A stretch of 64,000 bases of DNA, taken from Bosea sp. 29B (lineage in GTDB: Bacteria; Pseudomonadota; Alphaproteobacteria; Rhizobiales; Beijerinckiaceae). The stretch is taken from contig NZ_LR733817.1 of NCBI RefSeq assembly GCF_902506165.1, positions 5,361,625-5,425,624 of the forward strand, in the 5' to 3' direction. Both the position numbers and the translations under genes were made by a program. The notes under the pieces were generated by a model. The model was not told the origin of the DNA, ran no database searches, and worked only from the letters and a program-made list of their open reading frames with translations. Of the stretch, positions 36,240 through 41,787 are shown in pieces (within the stretch, counting starts at the first letter, position 1; each line of letters opens with the position of its first letter).

Positions 36240-36270
36240 TGTCGGCTGCCGGCCCGGCCAATCGTCCTTG
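36240..36270 (+). promoter_or_regulatory. Candidate ECF42 promoter, site 1 (YCII-sigma operon)
   Basis: TGTCGG (36240-36245), a 17-base spacer and CGTCCTTG (36263-36270) stand just upstream of the YCII gene. The same two words at exactly the same spacing occur at 37963-37993 and 39567-39597. A start of transcription some 7 bases later would leave a short leader with the GGAG site before the ATG at 36292. This would make the sigma factor autoregulated. Confidence 0.7.
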
Positions 36271-36291
36271 GCCTGAACCGGAGCGCCGCGC

Positions 36292-36657
36292 ATGCACTAC
36301 GCCATCCTTTGCTATCATTCCGAAGAGGTCGTCACGGCCTGGACGAAGGAGCAGAACGAGGAGGTCATGGGCCGCCTTGAAAAGGTCCGCCAGCGCATCG
36401 CCAAGGAGGGCAAGCTCGGTCCCGTGGCGCGCCTGCTGCCGACCACCGCGGCGACAACCCTGCGCAAGGACCGCGACCCGCCGCTCATCCTCGACGGCCC
36501 CTTCGCCGAGACCAAGGAGCAGTTCCTCGGCTTCTACATCGTCGACGTCGCCGATCTCGACGAAGCACTCGGCATCGCGCGCGAGCTCGGCGAAGCCAAT
36601 CCGGGCGGCGCTTTCGAGGTCCGCCCGCTCGCCGTCTACTATCCGGCCGGAGTCTGA
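36292..36657 (+). CDS. YCII-related DGPF-domain protein
   Basis: The 121-residue protein has the DGPF motif itself at residues 68-71 (LILDGPFAETKEQ) in a YCII-like ferredoxin fold. It begins MHYAILCYHSEE, the usual start. DGPF proteins are the standard neighbours of ECF42 sigma factors. They are thought to be part of that signalling unit, although their activity is unknown. The sigma gene follows after a 2-base gap, so the pair is one operon. The candidate ECF42 promoter lies 22-52 bases upstream of the start. Confidence 0.92.
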   Translation: MHYAILCYHSEEVVTAWTKEQNEEVMGRLEKVRQRIAKEGKLGPVARLLPTTAATTLRKDRDPPLILDGPFAETKEQFLGFYIVDVADLDEALGIARELGEANPGGAFEVRPLAVYYPAGV

Positions 36658-36659
36658 TC

Positions 36660-37922
36660 ATGGCGGAGATCGCCTGGATCCATGCGGCGCTGACCTCGGC
36701 GCGCCCTCAGGCGATCAGCGCCCTGCTCCGCTATTTCCGCGATCTCGACATCGCCGAGGAGGCCTATCAGGAGGCCTGCCTCCGGGCACTCCGGACCTGG
36801 CCGCAGAACGGCCCGCCGCGCGACCCCGCCGCCTGGCTGATCTTCGTCGGCCGCAATGTCGCGCTCGACCAGGTCAGGCGGCAGAAGAAGCAGGAAGCCC
36901 TGCCGGAGGAGGACCGGCTCTCCGATCTCGGTGACGCCGAGAGCGAGGTCGCCGAGAGGCTCGACGGCGGCCATTACCGCGACGACATCCTGCGCCTGCT
37001 GTTCATCTGCTGCCACCCCGATCTCCCGTCGACGCAGCAGGTGGCGCTCGCCTTGCGCATCGTCTCGGGGCTCAGCGTCAAGCAGATCGCCCGTGCGTTC
37101 CTGGTCGGCGAGAGCGCGATGGAACAGCGCATCACCCGCGCCAAGGCGCGCGTTGCTACTGCCCACGTCCCGTTCGAGACGCCCGGTCCGGTCGAACGCG
37201 CCGAGCGCCTCGCGGCGGTAGCGGCGATGCTCTACCTCGTCTTCAACGAGGGCTACTCCGCCAGCGGCGCCGAAAGCGACCGCCGCCGCCCCTTCAGCGA
37301 GGAGGCGATCCGCCTGACGCGGCTGTTGCTGCGGCTGTTCCAGACCGAGCCGGAGATCATAGGGCTGCTCGCCCTGATGCTGCTTCAGCACGCCCGCGCC
37401 GCGGCGCGTCTCGACGCCGACGGCCAGATCGTCCTGCTGGAGGATCAGGACCGCTTGCTCTGGAACCGCGAGATGATCGCCGAAGGCCTGGCGCTGGTCG
37501 ACAAGGCAATGCGCCATCGCCGGCCCGGTCCTTACCAGATCCAGGCAGCGATCGCCGGCGTTCATAGCCGCGCGGCGCGGGCGGACGAGACCGACTGGGC
37601 CCAGATCGACATCCTTTACGCCACGCTGGAGCATATCCAGCCATCGCCGGTGATCACGCTCAACCGCGCCGTCGCCATCGCCAAGCTGCGCGGGCCGGAG
37701 GCGGCGCTGGCGATGGTCGAGCCGCTCGAACAGCAGCTCTCTGGCTATTTCTACTTCTTCGGCTTCAAGGGCTGGCTGCTGATGCAGCTCGGCCGCGACC
37801 GCGAGGCGCGCACGACCTTCAATCGCGCCATTGCGCTGGCCGGCTCGGCCAGCGAGGCCGCCCATATCCGCCAGCATATCGACCGTCTGATGCGCGAGAG
37901 CGGACAGGTCGCGGCCGGCTGA
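36660..37922 (+). CDS. ECF42-type RNA polymerase sigma factor with C-terminal TPR-like extension
   Basis: The 420 residues carry sigma region 2 at about 10-80 (DIAEEAYQEACLRALRTWP, WLIFVGRNVALDQVRR) and region 4 at about 112-165 (ALALRIVSGLSVKQIARAFLV, then EQRITRAKARV). A long C-terminal extension (about 180-415) follows, with FNEGYSAS, GPYQIQAAIAGVHS, DWAQIDILYATLE and SPVITLNRAVAIAK. This extension with TPR-like repeats and the DGPF-protein partner define the ECF42 group, which has no classical anti-sigma factor. No anti-sigma gene is visible here either. The extension is thought to control activity. It probably reads the TGTCGG-N17-CGTC promoters nearby. Confidence 0.93.
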   Translation: MAEIAWIHAALTSARPQAISALLRYFRDLDIAEEAYQEACLRALRTWPQNGPPRDPAAWLIFVGRNVALDQVRRQKKQEALPEEDRLSDLGDAESEVAERLDGGHYRDDILRLLFICCHPDLPSTQQVALALRIVSGLSVKQIARAFLVGESAMEQRITRAKARVATAHVPFETPGPVERAERLAAVAAMLYLVFNEGYSASGAESDRRRPFSEEAIRLTRLLLRLFQTEPEIIGLLALMLLQHARAAARLDADGQIVLLEDQDRLLWNREMIAEGLALVDKAMRHRRPGPYQIQAAIAGVHSRAARADETDWAQIDILYATLEHIQPSPVITLNRAVAIAKLRGPEAALAMVEPLEQQLSGYFYFFGFKGWLLMQLGRDREARTTFNRAIALAGSASEAAHIRQHIDRLMRESGQVAAG

Positions 37923-37962
37923 GACCGGCGAGCAATCGCTGCTTGAAATTTCTGAGGTGCCG

Positions 37963-37993
37963 TGTCGGCACAACGCCCGCCCGTTCGTCCTTG
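37963..37993 (+). promoter_or_regulatory. Candidate ECF42 promoter, site 2 (DUF899 gene)
   Basis: TGTCGG (37963-37968), a 17-base spacer, and CGTCCTTG (37986-37993). It lies 40 bases after the sigma-factor stop and about 130 bases before the DUF899 start, giving a long leader that contains the hairpin at 38068-38099. Confidence 0.7.
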
Positions 37994-38067
37994 CCTCAAA
38001 GGGGCGACGAGCGAATGGTGCCGGCTACAAACGGTCGAAGCCAAAAACTCGTCGATGACAACCGCTT

Positions 38068-38099
38068 GCCTCGGACTCCTGAGCTTCAGGATCCGAGGC
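38068..38099 (+). other. Stem-loop in the DUF899 leader
   Basis: GCCTCGGA-CT-CCTGA-GCT-TCAGG-A-TCCGAGGC forms a two-part stem (8 and 5 base pairs) ending 25 bases before the DUF899 start codon. It lies inside the leader predicted from site 2 and could modulate translation or message stability. It is seen in sequence only. Confidence 0.55.
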
Positions 38100-38124
38100 G
38101 GCCAGCGCAGCGAGGAGACCGACC

Positions 38125-38901
38125 ATGACGCAGACCACCGTCAGCAAGGAAGACTGGATCGCCGCCCGCAGGGCCCTGCTCGTCAAGGAAAAGGAGCTGA
38201 CGCGCCAGCGCGATGCCATCGCCGCCGAGCGCCGCGCTTTGCCGCGCATCCGGATCGAGAAGACTTATGTCTTCGATACGCCGACCGGGAAGCAGACGCT
38301 CGCCGACCTCTTCCGCGGCCGCAGCCAGCTCATCGTCAAGCATTTCATGCTGGCGCCCGGCCAGTTCGAGGGCTGCGTCGGCTGCTCCTTCGAGGCAGAC
38401 CATGTCGACGGCGTGCTGCAGCATCTCGAGCGCCATGACGTCGCCTATGTCGCGGTCGCGCGGGCGCCGCTCGCCGAGATCGAGGCCTACAAGACCCGCA
38501 TGGGCTGGCGCTTCCACTGGGTCTCGTCCCATGGCAGCGACTTCAACTACGATTTCGACGTCTCCTACGCGTCGGAGCAGCTCGCCAACGCCTCCTACAA
38601 TTTCGAGACGATCGCCTCGCCGCTGGAGGACCTGTCCGGCCACACCGTCTTCGAGAAGGACGCGGATGGGACGATCTACCAGACCTACTCGACCTTCGGC
38701 CGCGGCGCCGAGGAGGTGCTCGGCACCTATATGTATCTCGACCTGACGCCGAAGGGTCGCAACGAGACCGGCCCGGCCGGCAACCTGACCGACTGGGTCC
38801 GCCCGCACGACCGCTACGATACGCCCGGCAAGACCGACATGACCGGCCGCTGGCACGAGGAGCCGTCGGCGTCCTGCTGCCACACTCCGGCGGCGGGCTG
38901 A
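38125..38901 (+). CDS. DUF899 thioredoxin-like family protein
   Basis: The 258-residue cytoplasmic protein has a thioredoxin-like fold. A helical N-terminus (residues 8-40) precedes YVFDTPTGKQTLADLFRGRSQLIVKHFMLAPGQ and a redox-type C84-x-x-C87 pair in FEGCVGCSFEADH. Family words such as WVSSHGSDFNYDF and VFEKDADGTIYQTYSTFGRG follow, then a C-terminal SCCHTPAAG. The ATG at 38125 has GAGGAG 8 bases upstream. DUF899 genes often accompany DGPF/ECF42 loci. Here a TGTCGG-N17-CGTC element upstream ties it to the sigma factor. The reaction is unknown. Confidence 0.9.
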   Translation: MTQTTVSKEDWIAARRALLVKEKELTRQRDAIAAERRALPRIRIEKTYVFDTPTGKQTLADLFRGRSQLIVKHFMLAPGQFEGCVGCSFEADHVDGVLQHLERHDVAYVAVARAPLAEIEAYKTRMGWRFHWVSSHGSDFNYDFDVSYASEQLANASYNFETIASPLEDLSGHTVFEKDADGTIYQTYSTFGRGAEEVLGTYMYLDLTPKGRNETGPAGNLTDWVRPHDRYDTPGKTDMTGRWHEEPSASCCHTPAAG

Positions 38902-38920
38902 GGGCGAACACGCTCTCGCT

Positions 38921-39442
38921 CTAGCCGATGTCGGCGCTCTCCAGACTGAGCGCGAGCTTGCGCAGCAGCGCCGCCAGTTCCTCCTGCTCGTGCGCACTCA
39001 GCCCTGCGAGCAGGTGCTTCTCCAGCGCCATGTCCTCGCGGAACGTCGCCTCGGCCTTGGCGCGGCCGGCCTCGGTCAATTCGACCAGGAGGCTGCGCTT
39101 GTCCTCCTCCGCCTCGCGCCGCCGGATCAACCCGGCCGCCTCCAGACGGTTGAGGCGAGCTGTGAGCCCGCCCGAGGAGATCATCAGCGTGCGGTAGAGT
39201 TCGGTCGGCGTCAGCCGCCATGGCGCTCCGGCCCGTCGCAACGTCGAGATCACGTCGAATTCGCCGGCATCGAGCCCATGGCGGGCAAAAACAGCCTCGA
39301 TTCCCGGCCGCAGCCGCAATGTGATCCGGCGCGCCCGGCCGATCACCGCCATGGGCGAGGTATCGAGCTCCGGCAGTTCCTGCTGCCATTGCCCGCGCAG
39401 CCGGTCGATATGATCGCCGCCTTGCTCCGTCCTGTCGTTCAT
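38921..39442 (-). CDS. MarR-family transcriptional regulator
   Basis: The 173-residue winged-helix repressor reads EFDVISTLRRAGAPWRLTPTELYRTLMISSGGLTARLNRLEAAGLIRRREAEEDKRSLLVELT; key parts are TELYRTLMISSGGLTARLNR (recognition helix, residues 80-99) and the wing EEDKRSLLVELT. The ATG at 39442 has GGAGG upstream. A start at 39499 is open in frame but would lie inside a palindromic operator, so it was rejected. The gene is divergent from the VOC gene, with two operator-like palindromes between them. The ligand is unknown. Confidence 0.92.
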   Translation of the reverse strand: MNDRTEQGGDHIDRLRGQWQQELPELDTSPMAVIGRARRITLRLRPGIEAVFARHGLDAGEFDVISTLRRAGAPWRLTPTELYRTLMISSGGLTARLNRLEAAGLIRRREAEEDKRSLLVELTEAGRAKAEATFREDMALEKHLLAGLSAHEQEELAALLRKLALSLESADIG

Positions 39443-39480
39443 CCCCGCCTCCGCTGATCCGATAGGGGGCATGATGCAAA

Positions 39481-39498
39481 TATCTTGACATCGAGACA
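39481..39498. promoter_or_regulatory. Candidate MarR operator, imperfect copy
   Basis: TATCTTGACATCGAGACA differs at two positions in its right half from the perfect palindrome 28 bases away (TATCTTG-NN-ATCAAGATA). It overlaps the TTGACA -35 hexamer of the VOC-side promoter. Confidence 0.6.
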
Positions 39499-39513
39499 AT
39501 ATCGGATTTATCT
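39485..39513 (+). promoter_or_regulatory. Sigma70-like promoter for the VOC operon
   Basis: TTGACA (39485-39490) and TTATCT (39508-39513) are separated by 17 bases. The perfect -35 and near-consensus -10 are embedded in the two palindromes, so repressor binding would block RNA polymerase. Confidence 0.6.
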
Positions 39514-39526
39514 TGCCATCAAGATA
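39509..39526. promoter_or_regulatory. Candidate MarR operator, perfect palindrome
   Basis: TATCTTG-CCAT-CAAGATA has perfect 7-base arms. ATCTTG...CAAGAT dyads are classic MarR-family sites. It overlaps the -10 region of the VOC-side promoter and lies 66 bases from the chosen MarR start codon. Confidence 0.72.
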
Positions 39527-39566
39527 GATTGCAAAAATGGCGTTGCGAAGAAATTTTCACTCGCCC

Positions 39567-39597
39567 TGTCGGAACGCCCGGACCGCCAACGTCCTTG
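39567..39597 (+). promoter_or_regulatory. Candidate ECF42 promoter, site 3 (VOC operon)
   Basis: TGTCGG (39567-39572), a 17-base spacer and CGTCCTTG (39590-39597), 71 bases before the VOC start codon. It lies downstream of the MarR-controlled promoter, giving the operon two independent inputs. Confidence 0.7.
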
Positions 39598-39668: not shown

Positions 39669-40094
39669 ATGTCCCAAGCTGCAGAAGCCATCCAGCCGCA
39701 GGCCCAGCCCGAGACCCGCGGCGGCGTCGTCGCCTATCTCGCCGTTGACGGCGCGGTGAAGGCCTCGGAATTCTACCAGAAGGCCTTTGGCGCGCAGGAA
39801 GTGGCCCGCATGCCAGTCGACGAAAAGGGGCGGACCATGCATATCCACCTCTACGTCAACGACGGCTCGCTGATGCTGAGCGATCCCTATCCCGAGCACG
39901 GCTACGCCTGGGAGAAGCCGCAGGGCTTCACCCTCACCCTGCGCGTCGACGACATCGACTTCTGGTGGAAGCGCGGCGTCGAGGCCGGGATGGAGGTCGT
40001 CACCCCGGTCGACCTGATGTTCTGGGGCGACTGCTACGGCCAGTATCGCGACCCGTTCGGCGTGCTCTGGGCCTTGGTCTCAGCGCCCAAGTAA
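39669..40094 (+). CDS. VOC/PhnB-like (glyoxalase superfamily) protein
   Basis: The 141-residue single-domain VOC protein has GGVVAYLAVDGAVKASEFYQKAFGA, where YLAVDGA-x-x-A-x-x-FY is the PhnB-like start. HIHLYVNDGSLMLSDPYPE follows, then YGQYRDPFGVLWALVS at the C-terminus. The last motif (R-D-P-F-G-x-x-W) is the usual VOC ending. The ATG at 39669 has GGAG upstream. It is the first gene of a run with DoxX-like, SRPBCC and DUF1579 genes. It carries both a MarR-type and an ECF42-type promoter. The enzyme activity is unknown. Confidence 0.9.
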   Translation: MSQAAEAIQPQAQPETRGGVVAYLAVDGAVKASEFYQKAFGAQEVARMPVDEKGRTMHIHLYVNDGSLMLSDPYPEHGYAWEKPQGFTLTLRVDDIDFWWKRGVEAGMEVVTPVDLMFWGDCYGQYRDPFGVLWALVSAPK

Positions 40095-40196: not shown

Positions 40197-40616
40197 ATGC
40201 AGTCCGTCTCCATCAACACCGCCACGCCGACCGGACAGCTCTGGGCCGGGCGCATCATGAGCGGCCTCGTCGTCGCGTTCCTGATCTTCGACGGCGGCAT
40301 CAAGCTCGCGCCGCTCGCCATCGTGACCGAGACCATGCAGCAGCTCGGCTATTCCGGCTCGCCGGAGCTGGCCCGCGGACTCGGCGTGATGACGCTGGTC
40401 ATCGCCTTGCTCTACGCGCTGCCGCGCACGTCGGTGCTCGGCGCGATCCTGCTGACCGGCCTGCTCGGCGGCGCGATGGCGACGCATCTGCGCGTCGGCA
40501 GCCCGCTCTTCAGCCATCTCCTCTTCGGCCTTTATCTCGGCCTCCTGGCCTGGGGCGGCCTTTATCTGCGCGATCCGCGGCTGCGCCGCCTGTTCCCCGT
40601 CCGTCTCGACGCCTGA
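40197..40616 (+). CDS. DoxX-like membrane protein
   Basis: The 139-residue protein has four predicted membrane helices (about 18-36, 58-76, 80-98 and 108-126). The DoxX-like signature is RIMSGLVVAFLIFDGGIKLAP early on, and AILLTGLLGGAMATHLRVGSPLFSHLLFG (here GLLGGAMATHLRVGSPLF) in the second half. The ATG at 40197 has GCGGAG upstream; a TTG 21 bases earlier is less likely. It sits 102 bases after the VOC gene and 29 bases before the SRPBCC gene. Confidence 0.87.
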   Translation: MQSVSINTATPTGQLWAGRIMSGLVVAFLIFDGGIKLAPLAIVTETMQQLGYSGSPELARGLGVMTLVIALLYALPRTSVLGAILLTGLLGGAMATHLRVGSPLFSHLLFGLYLGLLAWGGLYLRDPRLRRLFPVRLDA

Positions 40617-40645: not shown

Positions 40646-41197
40646 ATGCTCACATACATCGCCATCGCCGTGCTCGCCCTCGTCGCCGGCGTCCTCATTG
40701 TCGCCGCCCGCAAGCCCGATGTTTTCCAGGTCAGCCGTTCCGCGACGATCCGGGCGACGCCCGAGCGCATCTTCGCTCTGCTCGCGGACTTCCAGGAATG
40801 GGGCGCCTGGTCGCCCTATGAGAAGAAGGATCCGGCGATGACGCGCAGCTTCAGGGGCGCGACCTCCGGCGTCGGCGCCATCTACGCCTTCGACGGCAAC
40901 AAGCAGGCCGGCACCGGCGAACTTACGATCGTCGAGGTCCAGGCACCGACCAAGCTCGCCGTCACGCTCGACATGACCAAGCCCATGGCCTGCCACAACC
41001 TGATCACCTTCAGCCTCACCCCGGCAGAGGGCGGCACGCTGGTGACCTGGCACATGCAGGGCGCCTGCCCGTTCATGGGCAAGGTCATGGGCACGATCTT
41101 CAACATGGACCGCATGGTCGGCGGTGATTTCGAGAAGGGCCTCTCTGCGCTCAAGCAGGCCACGGAACGCCCGCAGCTGGTTGCTGCCGCGGCCTGA
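40646..41197 (+). CDS. SRPBCC family protein, membrane-anchored
   Basis: The 183-residue protein has an N-terminal membrane helix (MLTYIAIAVLALVAGVLIVAA). A START/Bet v1-like ligand-binding fold follows: VSRSATIRATPERIFALLADFQEWGAWSPYE begins the domain (key part PERIFALLADFQEWGAWSPYE), and a helix with FEKGLSALKQ ends it. This is the polyketide cyclase/dehydrase-type group. The ATG has CAGGAGAG upstream. It is co-directional with the VOC and DoxX-like genes. The ligand is unknown. Confidence 0.88.
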   Translation: MLTYIAIAVLALVAGVLIVAARKPDVFQVSRSATIRATPERIFALLADFQEWGAWSPYEKKDPAMTRSFRGATSGVGAIYAFDGNKQAGTGELTIVEVQAPTKLAVTLDMTKPMACHNLITFSLTPAEGGTLVTWHMQGACPFMGKVMGTIFNMDRMVGGDFEKGLSALKQATERPQLVAAAA

Positions 41198-41250: not shown

Positions 41251-41787
41251 ATGACCAACGCCGCAGAACGCGACAAGACCCAGGCCAACGACATGAGCGG
41301 CTGCATGCCGGCCAAGCCCCAGGCGGAGCATGAATGGCTCCACCAGTTCGTCGGCGAATGGACTTATGAGGCCGAGTGCCTGATGGGCCCGGACCAGCCG
41401 CCGATGAAGTCTTCGGGCACGCAATCCTTCTCGTCTTTCGGCGGGCTCTGGCTCGTCGGCGACGGCACCGGCCAGATGCCGGACGGCAGCCCTGCCGTAA
41501 CCCGGATGACTCTGGGCTACGATCCGCAGAAGGAGCGCTATGTCGGCTCCTTCATCGGCTCGATGATGGGCAATCTCTGGGTCTATACCGGCACGCGCGA
41601 CGCTGCCGGCAAAGTGCTGACGCTCGACACGGAAGGCCCCGACTTCACCAAGCCCGGCAAGATCACGGCCTACCAGGACATCCTCGAGATCAAGAGCCCG
41701 GACCATCACATCCTGTCTTCGCAGACAAAGGGCGAGAATGGCGAATGGGTCCAGTTCATGACGGCGCATTACCGCCGGGTGAAGTAA
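41251..41787 (+). CDS. DUF1579 family protein
   Basis: The 178 residues match DUF1579. HEWLHQFVGEWTYEAECLM (residues 30-48) opens a lipocalin-like barrel. FGGLWLVGDGTGQMPDG and TLGYDPQKERYVGSFIGSMMGNLWVYTG are the family core (key part MTLGYDPQKERYVGSFIG). The protein ends with MTAHYRRVK. The ATG at 41251 has AAAGGAGGAACT upstream, a strong site. It is the last gene of the run that starts at 39669. DUF1579 genes are frequent beside VOC/SRPBCC/ECF loci; the activity is unknown. Confidence 0.88.
   Translation: MTNAAERDKTQANDMSGCMPAKPQAEHEWLHQFVGEWTYEAECLMGPDQPPMKSSGTQSFSSFGGLWLVGDGTGQMPDGSPAVTRMTLGYDPQKERYVGSFIGSMMGNLWVYTGTRDAAGKVLTLDTEGPDFTKPGKITAYQDILEIKSPDHHILSSQTKGENGEWVQFMTAHYRRVK

Follow-up and report, generated by a model that had tools for sequence, protein, structure and literature searches.

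An ECF42-type sigma factor of Bosea sp. 29B, its predicted promoters, and covariation between sigma residue 155 and promoter base -31

Known ECF42 systems and the Bosea locus

The closest described counterpart of the locus treated here is that of Sinorhizobium meliloti RpoE10, an extracytoplasmic function (ECF) sigma factor of group ECF42 encoded together with a YCII protein (PMC6180224). Its SMc01149 promoter, printed as CCCTGTCGGCAGGCGGCATCCTCCTTCGTCCTTGGAATg, has a mapped start and is induced by RpoE10 overexpression, and its targets comprise glyoxalase-like proteins, a predicted binder of hydrophobic ligands and a protein of unknown function (PMC6180224). Streptomyces venezuelae ECF42 sigma factors and ECF-10 of Pseudomonas putida carry a C-terminal extension of about 200 residues of the tetratricopeptide repeat (TPR) type, and control by protein interaction has been proposed for them (PMC8999054). 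The subject of this report is a 64,000-nucleotide (nt) stretch of Bosea sp. 29B (contig NZ_LR733817.1, positions 5,361,625 to 5,425,624; hereafter the window), which encodes a sigma factor with an extension of similar length, amid three copies of one promoter-like element, P1 to P3.

The Bosea locus resembles the RpoE10 system in its YCII-sigma gene pair, in the hydrophobic-ligand-type and glyoxalase-like genes among its likely targets, and in the promoter form TGTCGG-N17-CGTCCTTGG; the words and spacing of P1 to P3 are identical to those of the SMc01149 promoter. A second S. meliloti strain (L460), whose sigma factor has glutamate at residue 155 (E155), repeats the SMc01149 promoter letter for letter before an SRPBCC gene and has TGTCGG-N17-CGTCTTC before YCII. 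The Bosea genome differs from S. meliloti in that its likely targets add DUF899, DoxX, DUF1579, GST and MFS genes, and in holding three sigma factors with a DUF6596 domain. A first-pass annotation of the window had noted an agreement of its elements with published ECF42 promoters. That agreement is real and, since the RpoE10 promoter is published with a mapped start and induction, the interpretation given there holds; the promoter and the kind of regulon are already known. Very probably, the ECF42-type sigma factor whose gene lies between these elements uses P1 to P3 as promoters of a small regulon, with E155 of that sigma factor the most likely reader of promoter base -31. The regulon adds a further, well-supported case to those known to be under ECF42 control.

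The sigma factor gene (36660..37922, + strand; 420 amino acids) has PF04542 (sigma2) and PF08281 (sigma4) above cut-off, the architecture of an ECF sigma factor, followed by an extension of about 200 residues with DUF6596 (PF20239) at residues 183-284. The structure model continues helical to residue 419, at a mean predicted local distance difference test score (pLDDT) of 70.6. No TPR model matched the window sigma factor in the profile scan, and TPR character is found here only in part; PF13428 or PF07719, which we take to be TPR entries, occur in 4 of 120 among the sigma homologues listed. The adjoining YCII/DGPF-type gene (36292..36657, + strand; 121 amino acids; PF03795, E 8e-17) has a homologue upstream of the sigma factor in all 80 related loci, and no anti-sigma gene was found among the eight other window proteins scanned around the sigma factor. 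Seven records hold a sigma factor 92-96% identical to this one, five named Bosea and two named only Boseaceae or Rhizobiales. The earlier assignment to ECF42, made from the long extension and the DGPF partner, is in agreement with the domains (the DUF6596 extension), the context (the YCII partner) and the promoters of the RpoE10 form.

The promoter element in the window, the genome and the genus

The 64 kb contain exactly three copies of TGTCGG-N17-CGTCCTTG, all on the + strand: P1 at 36240..36270 (-35 TGTCGG, 17-nt spacer, -10 CGTCCTTG), P2 at 37963..37993 and P3 at 39567..39597, the last again an exact match. None arises in 100 dinucleotide shuffles of the window. The three copies, their positions and their common 17-nt spacing are as first described, the spacers do differ among them, and a separate transcription unit stands behind each: YCII-sigma, DUF899, and VOC-DoxX-SRPBCC-DUF1579. 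With up to two mismatches allowed, the window has four sites against 0.75 expected, that is, one extra. The shorter core TGTCGG-N14..20-CGTC is less telling, with eight window matches (five of them not P1 to P3) against 2.1 expected; 1 of the 100 shuffles also had eight.

It is the CTT extension after CGTC that carries the signal. Genome-wide, TGTCGG-N15..19-CGTC matches 302 times and its reverse 121 times; for TGTCGG-N17-CGTC the two counts are 25 and 19. The extended form TGTCGG-N17-CGTCCTT has seven matches in the 6.33 Mb genome, three of them P1 to P3, and none in the reversed control. Because the loose core, at 302 matches, is unable to delimit a regulon, it was dropped as a definition in favor of the CTT-extended form. 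Beyond P1 to P3, this form precedes a GST gene (L038), a PF06983 gene (L039; presumably VOC/PhnB-like) and an MFS transporter gene (L032). The seventh match (L031) was rejected as a target because it lies inside hutD (PF05962), where ten other genomes of the genus also have a match, six of them lacking a close sigma orthologue. An automatic call of coding or intergenic sites by G+C content at codon positions was left unused, as it marked the GST, MFS and PF06983 sites as in-frame (frames overlapping the promoters). The full motif is thus above background when checked across the genome, as the first-pass annotation had suggested doing, and six of its seven matches precede a gene. The proposal of a regulon is supported, with the qualification that genes elsewhere in the genome carry the element too.

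Among 31 genomes of the genus, the window's own included, the extended pattern has 31 matches, 11 in hutD and 20 elsewhere (reversed control: 1 match in the 31 genomes). The 20 sites precede YCII (5), PF06983 (5), DUF899 (3), SRPBCC (2), GST (2), MFS (2) and VOC (1) genes. All 20 fall in five genomes with a sigma orthologue of 92-100% identity, and none in the other 26. One further genome (G530) encodes a 71% identical orthologue with E155, and its TGTCGG sites continue CGTCTTC and CGTCCTA and so are missed by the pattern. The close PF06983 orthologue is confined to the same five genomes, the other 26 having distant homologues or none; use of the PF06983 homologues of sigma-less genomes as a natural experiment was dropped, as only distant ones (at most 46% identity) occur there.

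Conservation in related genomes, the other check proposed at the outset, gives TGTCGG-N17-CGTC before the YCII-sigma pair in 75 of 80 related loci. On both of these counts the first-pass interpretation is favored. The first recognized gene 3' of the sigma factor varies among these loci (SRPBCC, DoxX, VOC, DUF899), and the element often stays. For example, one locus (L073, 8305-8530) keeps a P2-like element where no DUF899 was found, with another element after it that stands before an SRPBCC gene.

RNA polymerase carrying the window sigma factor would read TGTCGG through sigma4 and CGTC through sigma2, at a spacing fixed at 17 nt, and would drive the YCII-sigma, DUF899 and VOC-DoxX-SRPBCC-DUF1579 units together with the distant GST, PF06983 and MFS genes. 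The C-terminal extension probably controls when the sigma factor is active, and P1 predicts autoregulation of the YCII-sigma unit. The regulon is probably a small detoxification gene set, the VOC, GST, DoxX, SRPBCC and YCII families pointing to small reactive compounds as the likely substrates. Its gene list provides a basis for asking what roles the DGPF, DUF899 and DUF1579 proteins play, and what signal ECF42 sigma factors sense.

Residue 155 and promoter base -31

Base -31 is the sixth letter of TGTCGG, the first G of that word being counted as -35. Upstream of each sigma factor, the DNA was scanned for TGTCG-any-N17-CG[A/T]C with the sixth base left free. A first set held 77 sigma factors, 55 with a site; a second, collected once the hypothesis existed, held 60 (42 with a site); and a third held 28 members of a single family, along with one locus whose sigma factor could not be read. 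Together with the 80 related loci these make 245 sigma factors, 190 with a site, one place being counted twice (L311, L374). As controls, reversed sequences yielded 0 sites in 77, 3 in 80 and 1 in 60.

Residue and base go together. At the nearest site, E155 is matched by G at -31 in 110 of 110 sigma factors with a site; counted by sites, the match holds for 11 of 11 in the second set and 3 of 3 in the third. Of the 79 sigma factors with A, G, S or L at 155, 72 have A and 7 have T at -31, and in the third set A or G at 155 goes with A in 15 of 15 sites. The single Q155 sigma factor with a site in this total has G at its nearest site. Of the 121 E155 sigma factors, 109 have an element 330-700 nt before the sigma factor in which the spacer is 17 nt long, and one has an 18-nt spacer. 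Column 155 is the only one of residues 1-175 to separate G from non-G (97 sigma factors, up to three overlapping rows allowed); columns 40, 55, 107 and 110 equaled it in the first 52 sigma factors and failed in the larger set. E155 rows form one branch with support 100 in a quick tree from which column 155 was excluded.

The E155 codon (37122-37124) lies in the sigma4 recognition helix (codons 151-166; 37110..37157, + strand), a helix modelled with pLDDT 62 for residues 151-160 and 50 for 161-170. When the sequence is aligned to a sigma-H of solved structure (6in7), E155 falls on the first R of VRSRIFRA. That arginine we take to be R171 of Escherichia coli sigmaE, from the sigmaE sequence and from the residue names R171, S172, R173, F175 and R176 in a structure paper (PMC6713349). 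Crystals show bonds to the template guanine at -31 from R171 of sigmaE and K170 of sigmaW, and to the G at -35 from R176 of sigmaE and R175 of sigmaW (PMC6713349). A modelling and mutation study of Corynebacterium glutamicum sigmaH and sigmaD names position 170, in its own numbering, for base -31 (PMC11588781), a position taken here as the same as 155. The window sigma factor shares with sigmaE and sigmaW a helix position, by alignment, and a promoter base. They differ in that the basic residues of sigmaE and sigmaW read a template G, whereas the glutamate of the window clade would face a template C (G on the non-template strand). Glutamate opposite template C and arginine opposite template G are both consistent with the crystal contacts, and by this analogy E155 most likely reads base -31.

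Independent changes at residue 155 are few. Four near-identical Roseibium/Labrenzia records, to be counted as one event, have R155 with C at both locus promoters, a return to the sigmaE logic. The Roseibium sigma factor is 63-64% identical to that of the window, and its best 120 homologues have E (115), R (2) or D (1) at residue 155, two being unread; this identity and the predominance of E suggest that R155 arose from E155. In its three E155 neighbors (Sinorhizobium, Shinella, Phyllobacterium), all sites that share the strand of the sigma factor have G, and Shinella has one stray T site on the opposite strand. Of eighteen plasmid-borne loci, ten have a strict site: -31 is G for both E155 sigma factors, C for the one with R155, A for all six with A155 or G155, and A for the one with Q155.

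Each of the three DUF6596 sigma factors of the Bosea genome has YCII upstream; A155 occurs in the second (L043), along with two TGTCGA-N17-CGAC sites, and G155 in the third (L044), along with TGTCGA-N17-CGTC. Three ECF42-type paralogues with three promoter flavors suggest that the 155/-31 relation may insulate them, E155 setting the window sigma factor apart from two co-resident paralogues whose promoters have A at -31. It seems likely to us that a code of one residue and one base (E with G; R with C; A, G, S or L with A) insulates paralogous ECF42-type sigma factors, both locus promoters having switched with the sigma factor at least once. The relation allows ECF42 promoters to be predicted from the sigma factor sequence, and offers a possible way for crosstalk among ECF42 paralogues to be avoided. 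The literature consulted on ECF42, YCII/DUF899, ECF promoter specificity and sigmaE residues yielded no statement on E155 and -31; novelty is not claimed.

Several observations weigh against this account. Because the E155 clade has a single origin in the tree, most of the 110 E155/G cases represent one evolutionary event. A strict upstream site is lacking in 11 of 121 E155 sigma factors and 44 of 124 others; residue 155 in these 55 is A (24), E (11), G (10), S (8), D (1) or N (1). Seven sigma factors with A155 have T at -31 and a CGAC -10 (L225, L239, L352, L355, L357, L360, L220). No column accounting for that T was reported among residues 111-174, nor did any stand out for the third -10 base (CGTC versus CGAC). 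Distal sites upstream of two A155 sigma factors have G (L341, -1532) or C (L345, -1683), both having a nearer A site, the one used in the count above. Q155 is seen with G (L320), T (L484, a Mesorhizobium plasmid) or A (L470) and so is not diagnostic, the R155/C pairing being clear; three genomes of the genus were examined for a second instance of Q155 with G, and the family was found only in the original. L470 is also the one actinobacterial locus of seven with a strict site (TGTCGA-N17-CGAC). Co-occurrence of sigma factor and sites across the genus may partly reflect shared ancestry; as the close PF06983 orthologue is limited to the same five genomes, it is no clean test of sigma dependence. 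Finally, RpoE10 overexpression did not induce the YCII-rpoE10 unit, the motif of which, according to the authors, overlaps the mapped start (PMC6180224).

The elements might be operators of a DNA-binding regulator, such as the adjoining MarR-family protein, and not promoters at all. A MarR gene does separate P2 from P3, and inverted repeats are close by, but the elements are bipartite with their two words always 17 nt apart, resemble a promoter whose start has been mapped, and occur without a detected MarR homologue (MarR was detected in 1 of 80 related loci), and we regard this explanation as highly improbable. It is quite unlikely that the promoters are shared with the co-resident paralogues, leaving no private regulon. 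Near each of the three paralogues TGTCG occurs with a CG-type -10 at 17 nt, and T at -31 with A155 means that the reading is not fully strict; against this, base -31 divides the nearest sites without overlap, G for 110 of 110 with E155 and A or T for 79 of 79 with A, G, S or L.

Residue 155 could also be a mere clade marker, some other clade-specific difference setting base -31. The single origin of the E155 clade would permit this, as would the four other columns that also separated the first set; the larger set leaves column 155 alone as separator, a close relative of the E clade has R155 with C at both promoters, and the aligned residue contacts -31 in the sigmaE and sigmaW crystals (PMC6713349). 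Such a marker deserves some weight, and we think it improbable. Promoter use by the window sigma factor, with E155 reading -31, remains the explanation we prefer.

Leaders and neighboring genes

The distance from element start to ATG is 52 nt for P1 (YCII), 162 nt for P2 (DUF899) and 102 nt for P3 (VOC). With starts placed as in S. meliloti SMc01149 (near 36275 for P1, 37998 for P2 and 39602 for P3), the predicted leaders are 17, 127 and 67 nt long. P2 is conserved in three related loci (L072, L074, L075), and the DUF899 leader resembles theirs; it holds a stable hairpin (38067..38100, + strand; RNA fold, z -2.4) ahead of the ribosome site. An upstream open frame in this leader, judged by eye, was dropped, as the frame is not shared by the window and L072. 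The DUF899 gene follows (38125..38901, + strand; 258 amino acids; PF05988, E 1e-90).

The MarR-family gene (38921..39499, - strand; PF12802, E 3e-13) is divergent from the VOC run. Between it and P3, at 39481..39529 (no strand assigned), are inverted repeats with ATCTTG words, possibly one or more MarR operators, and the MarR gene and repeats adjoining P3 suggest that the VOC run is under additional regulation. The run comprises VOC/glyoxalase-family (39669..40094; PF00903), DoxX-like (40197..40616; PF13564), SRPBCC/polyketide-cyclase-like (40646..41197; PF10604) and DUF1579 (41251..41787; PF07617) genes, all on the + strand.

Related genes also occur on plasmids. On three cyanobacterial plasmids (L465, L469, L471) the sigma factor is transcribed divergently from a gene run that includes YCII and VOC, and the intervening DNA has two TGTCGA-N17-CGAC sites, both on the YCII-side strand. 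Many plasmids (records H35-H60), mostly of Klebsiella and E. coli among the matches listed, show a partial match to the C-terminal half of the sigma factor (about residues 230-378), perhaps a truncated DUF6596 gene.

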